39,579 bases of DNA from Candidatus Sungiibacteriota bacterium (GTDB lineage Bacteria > Patescibacteriota > Minisyncoccia > Sungbacterales > HO2-52-23): assembly GCA_016186095.1 (NCBI GenBank), contig JACPMG010000021.1:1-39579 (forward strand), in the 5' to 3' direction. The notes under the pieces are model-generated. The model did not search any database. It saw nothing but the letters and a program-made list of their open reading frames with translations, and was not told where the DNA came from. The number at the start of each line of letters is the position of its first letter. Position 1 is the first letter of the stretch. The position numbers and the translations under genes are program-made. Of the stretch, positions 5,171-24,468 are shown in pieces.

Positions 5171-5178
5171 ACTAAGAG

Positions 5179-5408
5179 AGGCCATAGTGGGATTTGCACC
5201 CACGAATAGCGGTTTTGTCCCGATGCCAAAATTTTGGAGGCCACGGGCGGAATCGAACCGCCGAATAGGAGTTTTGCAGACTCCTGCCTTAACCACTTGG
5301 CTACGTGGCCATACTCCAAAATTTTGGATCGGGATCCCGACTTCCTTATCTTATTTAATAATGGTGCGTCGGGACAGACCGCTGTGTTAGCTGCTTCACC
5401 ACAGCACC
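5179..5408 (-). pseudogene. Split, decayed tRNA-Cys enclosing an intact tRNA-Cys
   Basis: Minus strand. The 5' half (5408-5375) has a D-arm GTG...CAC and anticodon 5' strand GCGGTCTG. The 3' half (5217-5179) has CAAAACCGC, then CTATTCG and T-arm GTGGG...CCCAC. Joined, they give stem GCGGT/ACCGC with loop CTGCAAA, anticodon GCA, as in the inner gene. The 157-bp insert starts TCCCGA and ends TCGGGA. The copy is decayed: the T-loop is TGCAAAT and the acceptor strands GGTGCTG and TATGGCC have two mismatches plus two wobbles. Confidence 0.7.
5238..5310 (-). tRNA. tRNA-Cys (anticodon GCA)
   Basis: 73-nt cloverleaf: acceptor GGCCACG/CGTGGCC with discriminator T, as usual for Cys; anticodon stem GGAGT/ACTCC around loop CTGCAAA; T-arm GGCGG TTCGATT CCGCC. 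It is flanked on both sides by the palindrome CCAAAATTTTGGA (5226-5238 and 5316-5328) and lies inside the split tRNA-Cys remnant. Confidence 0.95.
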
Positions 5409-10597: not shown

Positions 10598-10669
10598 TGG
10601 GCACTGGGGGGATCGAACCCTCGACCTACTGTGTGTAAAACAGTCGCTCTACCACTGAGCTAAGTGCCC
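10598..10669 (-). tRNA. tRNA-Val (anticodon TAC)
   Basis: 72-nt cloverleaf: acceptor GGGCACT/AGTGCCC, discriminator A, anticodon stem ACTGT/ACAGT with loop TTTACAC (TAC). CCA is not encoded. On its 5' side lies a structured repeat region beginning with a truncated tRNA 5' end. Confidence 0.95.
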
Positions 10670-10906
10670 TTGTATATCTAACGGGGTGAATAAACGAGTT
10701 GCTGTTTCGCCCCCTCGGCGAAACCCAGAGAAATTTTTTACGCTCACACGTGCTTCGCACGGCTCGCTAAATTTCTCGCGAGAGCAAAGAAATTTGCTCT
10801 CGCCCAAGCCGACGTATTCTCCGACGGTGCCGTCGGAGTCCCGGTCGGCTCCCCGACTGCTCAATTATAAATTTTATAACGTGCGTCGGGGCTGAGCTAA
10901 ACGCCC
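10670..10906 (-). repeat. Truncated tRNA 5' end plus structured repeats before tRNA-Val(TAC)
   Basis: Minus strand 10906-10892 reads GGGCGTTTAGCTCAG, like the tRNA-Val(TAC) 5' end (13 of 15), and stops in the D-loop. It is followed by CCCCGACGCAC (10891-10881), a hairpin closed by GTCGGGG, further hairpins such as GACTCCGACGGCACCGTCGGAG-type stems, and the 102-bp element at 10704-10805. The same AGCTCAG-CCCCGACGCAC junction occurs at 22990-23007. Confidence 0.75.
10704..10805 (+). repeat. 102-bp covarying structured element, copy 1
   Basis: Aligns without gaps to 11630-11731; I count 83 of 102 identical positions. It contains hairpin GTTTCGCC/GGCGAAAC, an outer pair GAGAAATTT/AAATTTCTC, and the stem GCGAGAGCAAA/TTTGCTCTCGC. 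In copy 2 that last stem is GCACGAGCAAA/TTTGCTCGTGC, so two base pairs changed on both arms together. Confidence 0.85.
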
Positions 10907-10972
10907 TTATTCATGCGCCCATGAAGGATCGAACTTCAGACCTTTCGCATGTCAAGCGAACGCTCTACTTCA

Positions 10973-11073
10973 CCCCGCCACTTGGGCATGTGGGCAATAC
11001 AGGGATCGAACCTGTGGCCTTCACAATGTCAATGTGACGCTCTACCACTGAGCTAATTGCCCAAGTGGCGGGG
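10973..11073. repeat. 16-bp perfect inverted repeats framing tRNA-Val(GAC)
   Basis: CCCCGCCACTTGGGCA at 10973-10988 and its exact reverse complement at 11058-11073; the second arm overlaps the first bases of the inner tRNA. Confidence 0.9.
10991..11062 (-). tRNA. tRNA-Val (anticodon GAC)
   Basis: 72-nt cloverleaf: acceptor GGGCAAT/ATTGCCC, discriminator A, D-arm GCTCAGTGGTAGAGC, anticodon stem TCACA/TGTGA with loop TTGACAT (GAC), T-arm ACAGG TTCGATC CCTGT. It lies in the D-loop of a second, degenerate tRNA-Val with the same anticodon. Confidence 0.95.
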
Positions 11074-11094
11074 CAAGCTGAGCTAACCGCGCTC

Positions 11095-11396: not shown

Positions 11397-11475
11397 CGGC
11401 CCCACCGGGAATCGAACCCGCCTTCGCAGGCCGACACCCGCTTCGGCGGACGAAGGCCCGACTTGCCACATCTTG

Positions 11476-11611
11476 CCCCTCACTTAACTTCGATCATGCT
11501 TCGCCCCCAATGGGATTCGAACCCATGTACCGGGCTTGAAAAGCCCGTGTCCTGGGCCTCTAGACGATAGGGGCAGTATTTTATCTCATTTTTTCGAAGT
11601 TAAGTGAGGGG
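11476..11611. repeat. 18-bp perfect inverted repeats framing tRNA-Glu
   Basis: CCCCTCACTTAACTTCGA at 11476-11493 and its exact reverse complement at 11594-11611. The CCCTCACTTAAC core resembles the inverted repeat at 23237-23339. Confidence 0.9.
11502..11574 (-). tRNA. tRNA-Glu (anticodon TTC)
   Basis: 73-nt cloverleaf: acceptor GCCCCTA/TGGGGGC, discriminator G, anticodon stem CGGGC/GCCCG with loop TTTTCAA (TTC), T-arm ATGGG TTCGAAT CCCAT. Confidence 0.95.
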
Positions 11612-11629
11612 TGAAAAAGCGTGGCGTCC

Positions 11630-11731
11630 GTTTCGCCTCCTCGGCGAAACCCGGGGAAATCCTTAACGTTCGCATCTGCTCCGCACGGCTCACTAGATTT
11701 CCCGCACGAGCAAAGCAATTTGCTCGTGCCC
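11630..11731 (+). repeat. 102-bp covarying structured element, copy 2
   Basis: Gap-free homologue of 10704-10805. It starts one base from the 5' piece of the split tRNA-Glu. Stem GCACGAGCAAA/TTTGCTCGTGC shows paired changes relative to copy 1. Confidence 0.85.
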
Positions 11732-11800
11732 GCTAGACGATGGGGCCAAAATAGCTGATTTGCTTTTATAAGTTTATCAGAAACACGGAAAATTTCAATT

Positions 11801-22981: not shown

Positions 22982-23065
22982 GCCGGAGTAGCTCAGCCCC
23001 GACGCACTGCTGTATAATTTAAAAAGGTGAAGTCGGGGCTCCGACTAAACGTCGGAGCGGTAGAA

Positions 23066-23173
23066 CCTGCCCGCCATAGCCCGAGCCCCTTTAGTTCAGT
23101 GGCAGAACAGCGGTATCGTAAACCGCATACGTCAGTTCGATTCTGACAGGGGGCTAAGGCGATGGCAGGCGGG
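23066..23173. repeat. Inverted repeats framing tRNA-Thr
   Basis: CCTGCCCGCCATAGCC (23066-23081) and GGCGATGGCAGGCGGG (23158-23173) are complementary at 13 of 16 positions. Confidence 0.7.
23085..23155 (+). tRNA. tRNA-Thr (anticodon CGT)
   Basis: 71-nt cloverleaf: acceptor GCCCCTT/AGGGGGC, discriminator T, D-arm GTTC...GAAC, anticodon stem GCGGT/ACCGC with loop ATCGTAA (CGT), T-arm GTCAG TTCGATT CTGAC. Confidence 0.93.
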
Positions 23174-23236
23174 GCAACTCTTTCGTAAACATGTAAACAG
23201 TAGGTCGGTGGTTCAAATCCACTCTCCGGCTATTTC

Positions 23237-23339
23237 ATCCCTCACATAACTATGTGCATAATTCCCAGAGGATTCTCCTGTTCGTAGATTTTTTGGGCGA
23301 TATAAACAACAGAGATGTGCACAAGGTTATGTGAGGGAT
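23237..23339. repeat. 14-bp perfect inverted repeats upstream of prfB
   Basis: ATCCCTCACATAAC (23237-23250) and its exact reverse complement (23326-23339), with ATGTGCAT/ATGTGCAC continuing inward, enclose about 75 bp without a gene. The same CCCTCACWTAAC core frames tRNA-Glu at 11476-11611. Confidence 0.8.
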
Positions 23340-23372
23340 TCATTTTTTCCGTCAATGTGTTATACTCATTAT

Positions 23373-24468
23373 ATGGACGAATTGCGCGAGAAATTGCAGG
23401 CGTTGGAGAATAAAATCCGCGAGCTCGCGGACCGTCTTTGATATTGCAAAAAAGCGCGCGGAAATTTTAAGAATTGAGAGCGAGATGGCTTCCTCCGGCT
23501 TCTGGGAGGATAAAGCAAGAGCCGCCGGTCTTAGTCAGGAGCTCGCGCAGATGAAAAAGGAAGTAGAGCGCTGGAGCAAATTGGCCGAGGAGGCCAAGAT
23601 GCTGACCGAACTCATGCTGGCCGCCGCCGAAGATGAAGATTTGAGCCAAGAGATCAACGAGCGGGCGGATTTTTTAGAAAGAGAAATAAAGACGGTTGAA
23701 TTTGAGCTTTTTTTCTCCGGCAAGTACGATAAGGGCAACGCGGTTTTGTCGGTTTACGCCGGAGCCGGGGGTAAAGACGCTGAAGACTGGGCCGCGCTTT
23801 TATTGAGAATGTACAGCCGGTTTGGCGAAAATAAGGGATGGAAGACCAAAATTATTCATGAGCACTGGGGCGAATATAACGGGCCTGCGGGGTGGGGAAT
23901 TAAGAACGCCACTATCTTAATAGAAGCGCCTCACGCCTATGGGTATTTAAAAAAAGAGTCAGGAGTGCATAGATTAGTACGAATTTCACCATTTTCTTCG
24001 CAATCGCTCCGTCATACCTCTTTTGTTTTGGTTGATGTGATGCCGGAGTTTGTGGCTCCCGAGGAAGTAGAAATAAAACCGGAAGATTTAAAAATTGATT
24101 TTTTCCGCTCCTCTGGTCCGGGAGGGCAAAATGTAAACAAACGTGAGACTGCGGTACGCATTACCCATCTTCCCACCGGAATTCAGGTTGCCTCGCAGGT
24201 TGAGCGTACGCAGGAGCGCAATCGCGAACTGGCCCTGGAGCTTTTGCGCTCAAGGATATATAGATTTAAACTTGAGCAACAGGAAAAAGAGCGACAAGGC
24301 GTGCGGAAAGAAAAAGTCGCGATTGAATGGGGATCGCAAATCCGTTCCTACGTCATGCATCCCTACCAGATGGTAAAAGACCACCGCACCGAAATTGAAA
24401 CTTCTAATATAGATGCGGTACTGGACGGGGAGTTGGATGAATTTATTGAAGCAGAAATAAAGGTATAA
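23373..24468 (+). CDS. prfB: Peptide chain release factor 2 with programmed +1 frameshift
   Basis: RF2 reads UAA and UGA stops. ATG 23373 opens a 22-codon frame ending CGT-CTT-TGA (TGA at 23439-23441). A +1 shift at CTT-T gives DIAKKRAEILRIESEM and the rest of RF2, for 364 residues in total, the family's usual length. Seen: the SPF stop-recognition motif in RISPFSSQS and GGQ in SGPGGQNVNKRETAVR. The classical AGGGGG stimulator upstream of CTTTGA is not obvious. A -10-like TATACT (23361) precedes the ATG. The frameshift autoregulates RF2 and shows that UGA is a stop codon in this organism. Confidence 0.93.

Follow-up and report, generated by a model that had tools for sequence, protein, structure and literature searches.

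REP and BIME sequences are short, palindromic, non-coding, dispersed elements (REP background, PMC3733652). The literature that we searched, among which subscription journals and preprints were few, holds no description of nested tRNAs, of tRNA-carrying palindromes or of tRNA insertions in Patescibacteria. To our knowledge, no REP holds a tRNA inside a cognate one, and we know of no tRNA cargo in Rickettsia palindromic elements (RPE). Integrative elements that use tRNA genes as target sites encode an integrase and restore one end of the gene that they enter.

Here we analyse a 39,579-nt stretch of DNA (hereafter the window) from a 680-kb Patescibacteria genome (G000; G and L numbers label genomes and loci). 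Several families of palindromic elements with fixed ends occur across Paceibacteria-type Patescibacteria, and some of them hold an intact tRNA in the hairpin loop and lie in relics of the cognate tRNA gene. We consider it fairly probable that the Thr locus of the window is a fossil tRNA-Thr, broken and functionally replaced by a mobile palindromic cassette of ~110 bases carrying tRNA-Thr(CGT), with only cognate insertions surviving.

Interrupted tRNA genes in the source genome

Positions 22982-23231 of the window (+ strand) contain a dead tRNA-Thr(CGT) interrupted by two inserts, which belong to different element families. The 5' acceptor strand and D-arm of the outer gene (GCCGGAGTAGCTCAG, 22982-22996, pairing 7/7 with CTCCGGC at the 3' end) are followed by a double-hairpin element without tRNA in the D-loop (CCCCGAC..GTCGGGG plus CTCCGAC..GTCGGAG, 22997-23057), the remainder of the D-arm (CGGTAGAA, 23058-23065), a 108-base palindromic cassette of the type designated below as type 2 (CCTGCCCGC...GGCAGGCGGG, 23066-23173), and the 3' part of the outer gene, comprising the CGT anticodon arm, T-arm and acceptor strand (23174-23231). 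Inside the cassette lies an intact tRNA-Thr(CGT) (23085-23155, Rfam 62.3 bits), presumed to be the working gene. Despite its 7/7 acceptor pairing, the outer tRNA-Thr is a relic: eight bases of its anticodon loop are tandemly duplicated (GTAAACATGTAAACA), and an extra A precedes the cassette. The original prediction of a second insert holding an intact tRNA-Thr of the same anticodon between 13/16 complementary arms is confirmed (shuffle p < 0.005 for the arms); its picture of two inserts also stands, but it missed the cognate match found everywhere, the existence of two element families and the relic status of the outer gene. Relative to shuffled sequences, folding lies 6.2 sd lower for the 250-nt unit and 4.5 sd lower for the 108-base cassette by itself, and an Rfam scan of the window returned tRNA matches only, with no intron family or group I/II intron core in the insert. 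The tRNA-less hairpin in the D-loop probably entered later than the cassette. Orthology between G000 and G012 at the Thr locus is not supported, as the neighbouring genes show no synteny. Two other features lie 3' of the Thr locus: a palindromic element of ~100 bases (CCCTCACATAAC..GGTTATGTGAGGG, 23238-23338), with a similar copy on contig C1 (L187, ~443-545), and the start of prfB (release factor 2; 23370-23450), with a CTTTGA programmed-frameshift-like site, in keeping with a bacterial genome.

The junction AGCTCAG-CCCCGACGCAC, reported at 22990-23007 (+) and 10898-10881 (-), is exact in both places, and a search of the whole genome adds a single third copy (C17:26402, -; one mismatch), which interrupts the D-loop of a dead tRNA-Thr that encloses an intact tRNA-Thr(TGT). 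A predominance of the junction outside tRNA-like context is not seen, although AGCTCAG belongs to tRNA sequence and makes this test circular in part. Searched for by itself, the hairpin (YCCCGACGCAC) has three copies in the window where 0.03 would be expected: one in the tRNA-Thr, one in the dead tRNA-Val fragment and one in a broken tRNA-Cys, within its anticodon loop. Related genomes hold members of this hairpin family in tRNAs, in 23S rRNA (L029) and, in a shorter form, in-frame in rpoB (L030) and a polX-like gene (L038). The proposal of a specific insertion site therefore holds for the cassettes, where type 1 replaces TGG and type 2 precedes G, but is too narrow for the shared D-loop hairpin, because the latter also occurs in anticodon, variable and T loops, in rRNA and in protein genes; it is a general palindromic element, not a D-loop-specific one. 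At L029 (G003 C1:82773-85828), where the genome is a single contig, the copy in the 23S rRNA gene is a double-hairpin element.

Three further loci on the minus strand of the window show the same arrangement. At the Val locus, the 5' part (11078-11092) and 3' part (10914-10967) of an outer tRNA-Val(GAC) flank a type-1 cassette (CTTGCCCC...GGGGTGAAG, 10968-11077) that replaces the TGG of the D-loop and holds an intact tRNA-Val(GAC) (10990-11062). The junction lies there as described, but it follows a separate dead tRNA-Val 5' piece (10892-10906), joined to the first hairpin of the double-hairpin element (10851-10891; together 10851-10906) just upstream of an intact tRNA-Val(TAC) (10598-10669), and the nested tRNA-Val(GAC) belongs to the different cassette that adjoins this piece. 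The outer 3' part is an annotation trap, in that ARAGORN calls it a second tRNA-Val: the ARAGORN and Rfam call at 10915-10988 (29.8 bits, just over the cut-off) consists of the 3' relic and a cassette arm. A tRNA-Glu relic (11733-11747 and 11397-11419; locus 11397-11747) surrounds an intact tRNA-Glu(TTC) (11501-11575) with 18-bp perfect arms (11594-11611 / 11476-11493). The outer tRNA-Cys (5375-5408 and 5178-5217; locus 5178-5408) is interrupted at TCTG|CAAAA; the insert is a double-hairpin element composed of one hairpin (5335-5374) and a second one, with arms 5316-5334 / 5218-5237, that holds an intact tRNA-Cys (5235-5310).

A census of the whole genome, based on 37 Rfam tRNA places and a T-arm pattern, identified nine of the 37 tRNAs (Glu TTC, Val GAC, Asn, Thr TGT, Gln TTG, Val CAC, Lys CTT, Cys and Thr CGT) with strongly complementary leader and trailer arms, unmatched by any shuffle. 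At least seven of the nine (Glu, Val GAC, Val CAC, Lys, Cys, Thr TGT and Thr CGT) are nested in broken tRNAs of matching identity, and the tRNA-Asn has a hairpin-riddled dead copy directly upstream, with near-identical bodies. The T-arm scan of this genome revealed no relic with a recognisable T-arm that lacks an intact cognate neighbour. A Met/Glu/Gln tRNA cluster on contig C9 (6.1-7.6 kb, L011) is of a different style, with two genes ending in an encoded CCA-like sequence, and may belong to a prophage or a foreign contig.

tRNA-filled cassettes across the class

Two cassette types, with ends CTTGCCCC/GGGGTGAAG (type 1) and CCTGCCCGC/GGCAGGCGGG (type 2), were traced through 383 genomes of the class. 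Type-1 ends gave 24 matches in 19 of these genomes, against one for the reversed control, and about 21 of the 24 hold a tRNA (21 distinct loci); another type-1 tRNA cassette, detected outside the class among ~260 genomes searched (G612, L313), brings the distinct type-1 loci to 22. Type-2 ends (CCTGCCCGC...GGCAGGCGGGG) gave 33 matches in 20 genomes of the class set and none for the reversed control, with a tRNA at 18 distinct loci among those read. The resulting 39 distinct tRNA-filled cassettes in the class, or 40 with the one from another class, measure about 100-123 bases and carry Thr, Pro, Arg, Val, Ile, Gln or Gly tRNAs.

All 40 lie in the relic of a cognate tRNA, as far as the relic is readable. 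We identified the outer tRNAs by inspection instead of with an automatic caller, and the outer anticodon, readable by eye in roughly 30 loci, is the same as that of the cargo with the exception of L313 (a single base, TAT for TAC); it is unreadable in relics that are truncated (L041, L058, L217) or too decayed (L044, L047, L051, L059, L201), among which L051 may be a sister isoacceptor. Chance would yield 3.4 cognate matches out of 40 at the anticodon level and 7.9 at the amino acid level, with a permutation maximum of 20 in 20,000. No tRNA-carrying cassette outside a tRNA gene was found among the type-1 and type-2 matches. As a control, the type-1 pattern was run on other genomes, and a tRNA is present in one of the 80 chance matches listed, in Ca. 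Giovannonibacteria RIFCSPLOWO2_02_FULL_45_28, the named counterpart of G062. Carriage of cassettes by phages was rejected, since none of the 88 type-1 and four type-2 pattern matches on viral contigs holds a tRNA.

Elements with the same ends also occur without tRNA. Those of type 2 are AT-rich, span ~100 bases and sit mostly in non-tRNA sites, or in dead tRNAs. One genome (G221) holds multiple tRNA-less type-2 copies of ~100 bases, several of them near-identical, in different intergenic places (L192, L210, L215, L218, L219). Empty type-1 hairpins are rare (five in 142 genomes); one lies in the D-loop of a tRNA-Ile(TAT), and two (L183, L186) in the loop of a hairpin. In a genome of another class (G579), type-1 elements with non-tRNA cargo lie in the D-loops of dead tRNAs followed by an intact tRNA (L312, L314), which at L312 is a tRNA-Val, cognate by eye.

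The insertion points are characteristic of each type. Type 1 replaces TGG, either at G18G19 of the D-loop (CAG-TGG-TAGAGC) or as the anticodon itself in tRNA-Pro(TGG), and type 2 enters cleanly just before a G. The arms, which often continue directly into the acceptor stem, differ among loci and pair within each locus, at 7.7 of 8 positions versus 4.3 with partners swapped (maximum 5.5 of 2000). Three-level nests are present in G282 (Thr TGT), G012 (Thr CGT) and G176 (Pro), and one outer tRNA-Ile contains two tRNA-Ile cassettes (L052, in G019).

The conserved gene order infB-rbfA-tRNA-Cys-tRNA-Leu(TAA) provides empty sites for comparison. A plain, uninterrupted tRNA-Cys follows rbfA in five genomes of the same family as the source genome (G001, G006, G007, G009, G011), the gene is split at exactly TCTG|CAAAA around an intact tRNA-Cys in G000, G003, G050 and G052, and one half is kept at the rbfA/tRNA-Cys position of G002, G048 and G013. 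The palindromes at this site are of the double-hairpin type in G000 and G050, and of other kinds in G003 and G052. The outer tRNA-Cys of G000 scores 0.77-0.80 against the residents of G006, G009 and G011 and 0.65 against its own inner tRNA, and that of G002 scores 0.79 and 0.61, respectively; the comparison for G050 and G052 is not decisive. By these similarities, the inner tRNA-Cys of G000 is of a different sequence type, and the outer one resembles the family residents. Across 32 cassettes, the outer gene scores 30.9 against its own cargo and 26.8 against same-anticodon cargo of other genomes, being closer to its own in 18 of 32, and four outer genes (L054, L043, L193, L212) match the cargo of another genome better than their own. 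Because outer genes are hardly closer to their own cargo, and because the outer tRNA-Cys of G000 and G002 are nearer to residents, the cargo is usually foreign and in general not a copy of its victim. Near-identical outer and inner bodies at a few loci (Asn, and L048, in which the outer 3' half is identical to the inner) suggest conversion or local copying in those cases.

Origin of the cognate match

In the reading that we prefer, a cassette would insert into one of the loops of a tRNA gene, with loss of TGG for type 1 and ahead of a G for type 2. A cell receiving non-cognate cargo would die, and one receiving cognate cargo would live on the cargo tRNA, whose release presumably relies on the ordinary RNase P and 3'-end processing steps. 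The element, carrying the only working copy, would then be fixed and could no longer be lost, while the outer halves would decay and gather neutral hairpins, and new cassettes could again replace the functional inner copy, generating three-level nests. Selection of this kind is supported by the cognate nesting in 40 of 40 loci, as far as readable, against 7.9 expected, by the mostly non-tRNA sites of same-ended elements lacking a tRNA, by arms that vary yet pair within a locus, and by the empty Cys sites, the foreign cargo, the three-level nests and the absence of an orphan T-arm relic in G000. Several observations count against it: at L052, the outer tRNA-Ile was already dead after the first insertion, so that a match was no longer required for the second; a pure selective filter does not demand that tRNA cassettes be absent outside tRNA genes; and conversion or local copying is suggested at L048 and Asn. 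In addition, the essentiality of the struck tRNAs is presumed, and tRNA-Thr(CGT) and tRNA-Val(CAC) are dispensable in other bacteria. The eight relics with unreadable anticodons, the one-base difference at L313 and the failure to link a transposase to the cassettes, with Y1_Tnp and RVT_1 each missing from many carriers, weigh on the same side.

The serious rival is homology-guided insertion, in which cassette DNA pairs with a related resident tRNA gene, through strand invasion or through recombination of the tRNA halves that flank the cassette in the nested locus of a donor, and lands by sequence, not by survival. Although we judge it unlikely as the main explanation, the double insertion into an already dead tRNA-Ile and the lack of tRNA cassettes outside tRNA genes among the matches favour some homology guidance, and the agreement of anticodons, seen even where the isoacceptor may not be essential, together with the identical 3' half at L048, points the same way. 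The insertion points, on the other hand, are specific to the element (TGG replaced, or before G) and similar for tRNA-less type-2 copies in unrelated DNA, so recombination between tRNA sequences is not needed to account for the junctions, and the similarity of outer genes to their own cargo barely exceeds that of other same-anticodon pairs. The presence of element-specific junctions in tRNA-less copies too leads us to favour transposition followed by selection.

In situ duplication, whereby template switching would place a copy of the resident tRNA within the loop of a palindromic insert, would make the identity match trivial and could explain the near-identical bodies at Asn and the identical 3' half of L048. 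It is already disfavoured, and we regard it as very improbable: at L039 and L045 the inner and outer stems differ while each is internally paired, the outer tRNA-Cys of G000 and G002 are nearer to residents of relatives than to their own inner tRNA, and the outer genes of L054, L043, L193 and L212 are better matched by cargo from another genome. Least probable, and only marginally credible, is that the inserts are introns and both tRNAs are made, the outer one being restored in RNA by splicing or by trans-joining of halves that the stable arms would keep together, for although the outer genes of L039 and L043 are still recognised as tRNAs once a triplet replaces the cassette, the removal of TGG (G18G19, or the tRNA-Pro anticodon) by type 1 means that excision cannot restore the tRNA, many outer genes have lost a whole half (L041, L051, L200, L201, L217), the outer tRNA-Thr of the window has extra bases in its D-arm and anticodon loop, and Rfam finds no intron family in the window.

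A broader and more tentative proposal, which we hold to be possible but doubtful, is a new kind of minimal selfish element: a protein-free DNA hairpin of ~110 bases, with an essential tRNA as its sole cargo, would home to the cognate gene in other cells by homology and not by survival alone, destroy it, become irreplaceable and cause tRNA genes to be replaced horizontally time and again across Patescibacteria. If the replacement of tRNA genes by mobile cassettes is true, a hairpin and a tRNA would be enough for mobile DNA to spread, by disrupting an essential gene and providing its spare. It would explain the relic-littered tRNA loci of Patescibacteria, with tRNA genes replaced horizontally one isoacceptor at a time, and tRNA callers would be reporting relics as extra genes, as in one tRNA-Val call of the window. 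The nests would constitute an ordered record of successive replacements, making recurrent replacement of essential RNA genes testable by genome comparison.

Relation to known mobile elements

Candidate movers were sought among known enzymes. A Y1/RAYT transposase was rejected, since the Y1 genes of G000 are associated with other palindromes and six of 12 cassette-rich genomes (G221, G282, G176, G231, G058, G190) lack Y1_Tnp. None of the 20 Y1_Tnp loci in cassette genomes is flanked by cassette ends, apart from a solitary CCTGCCCGC that lies several hundred bases away from a Y1 gene. The three Y1_Tnp genes of G000 (L187, L188 and L189, on C1, C4 and C28) each have their own palindrome family (GTACCGGACTTAGTCCGGTAC, CTTGGACGCGGAGCGTCCAAG and TTACGAGGCCGGGCCTCGTAA, respectively), in classic RAYT/REP-like arrangements unrelated to the tRNA cassettes. 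A retroelement or other retro-mechanism was likewise rejected, RVT_1 being absent from seven of 13 carriers, including G000.

The interruption of tRNA genes between complementary arms recalls the intron-containing, split and permuted tRNA genes of archaea, but here the outer gene is a relic that excision cannot restore, and the insert holds the presumed working tRNA. IStrons and self-splicing introns are also mobile DNA harmless to the interrupted gene; the harmlessness of the cassette, in contrast, would stem from the spare gene in the element and not from RNA splicing. Integrative elements at tRNA sites share the targeting of a tRNA gene and compensation for the damage, whereas a cassette is a whole divergent cognate tRNA within a permanently broken one, in ~110 bases, and no integrase gene is present in the cassettes, which span only about 100-123 bases. 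The double-hairpin element, and it alone, resembles RPE in lying in-frame within proteins (rpoB, L030; polX-like, L038) as well as in RNA genes, a likeness of arrangement, whereas RPE are not known to carry tRNA cargo. Cassettes have terminal inverted repeats, as do MITEs (derivatives of DDE transposons), but show no target-site duplication: type 1 loses TGG, and neither type 2 nor the Cys site (TCTG|CAAAA) has any.

REP/RAYT systems are, like the cassettes, short, palindromic, non-coding and dispersed, with fixed ends and no obvious target duplication. They differ in that the Y1-linked palindromes of G000 are other sequences and cassette-rich genomes can lack Y1_Tnp, and the GTAG or CGTC tag of REP/RAYT is absent from the cassette ends read. 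The cassettes may yet prove to form a REP-like family that depends on a transposase. Since defining features of REP/RAYT and MITEs are missing here and the literature searched yielded no description, we regard cognate tRNAs nested in broken tRNAs as a new arrangement, the parts of which have known analogues in REP, RPE, MITEs and tRNA-site integration.
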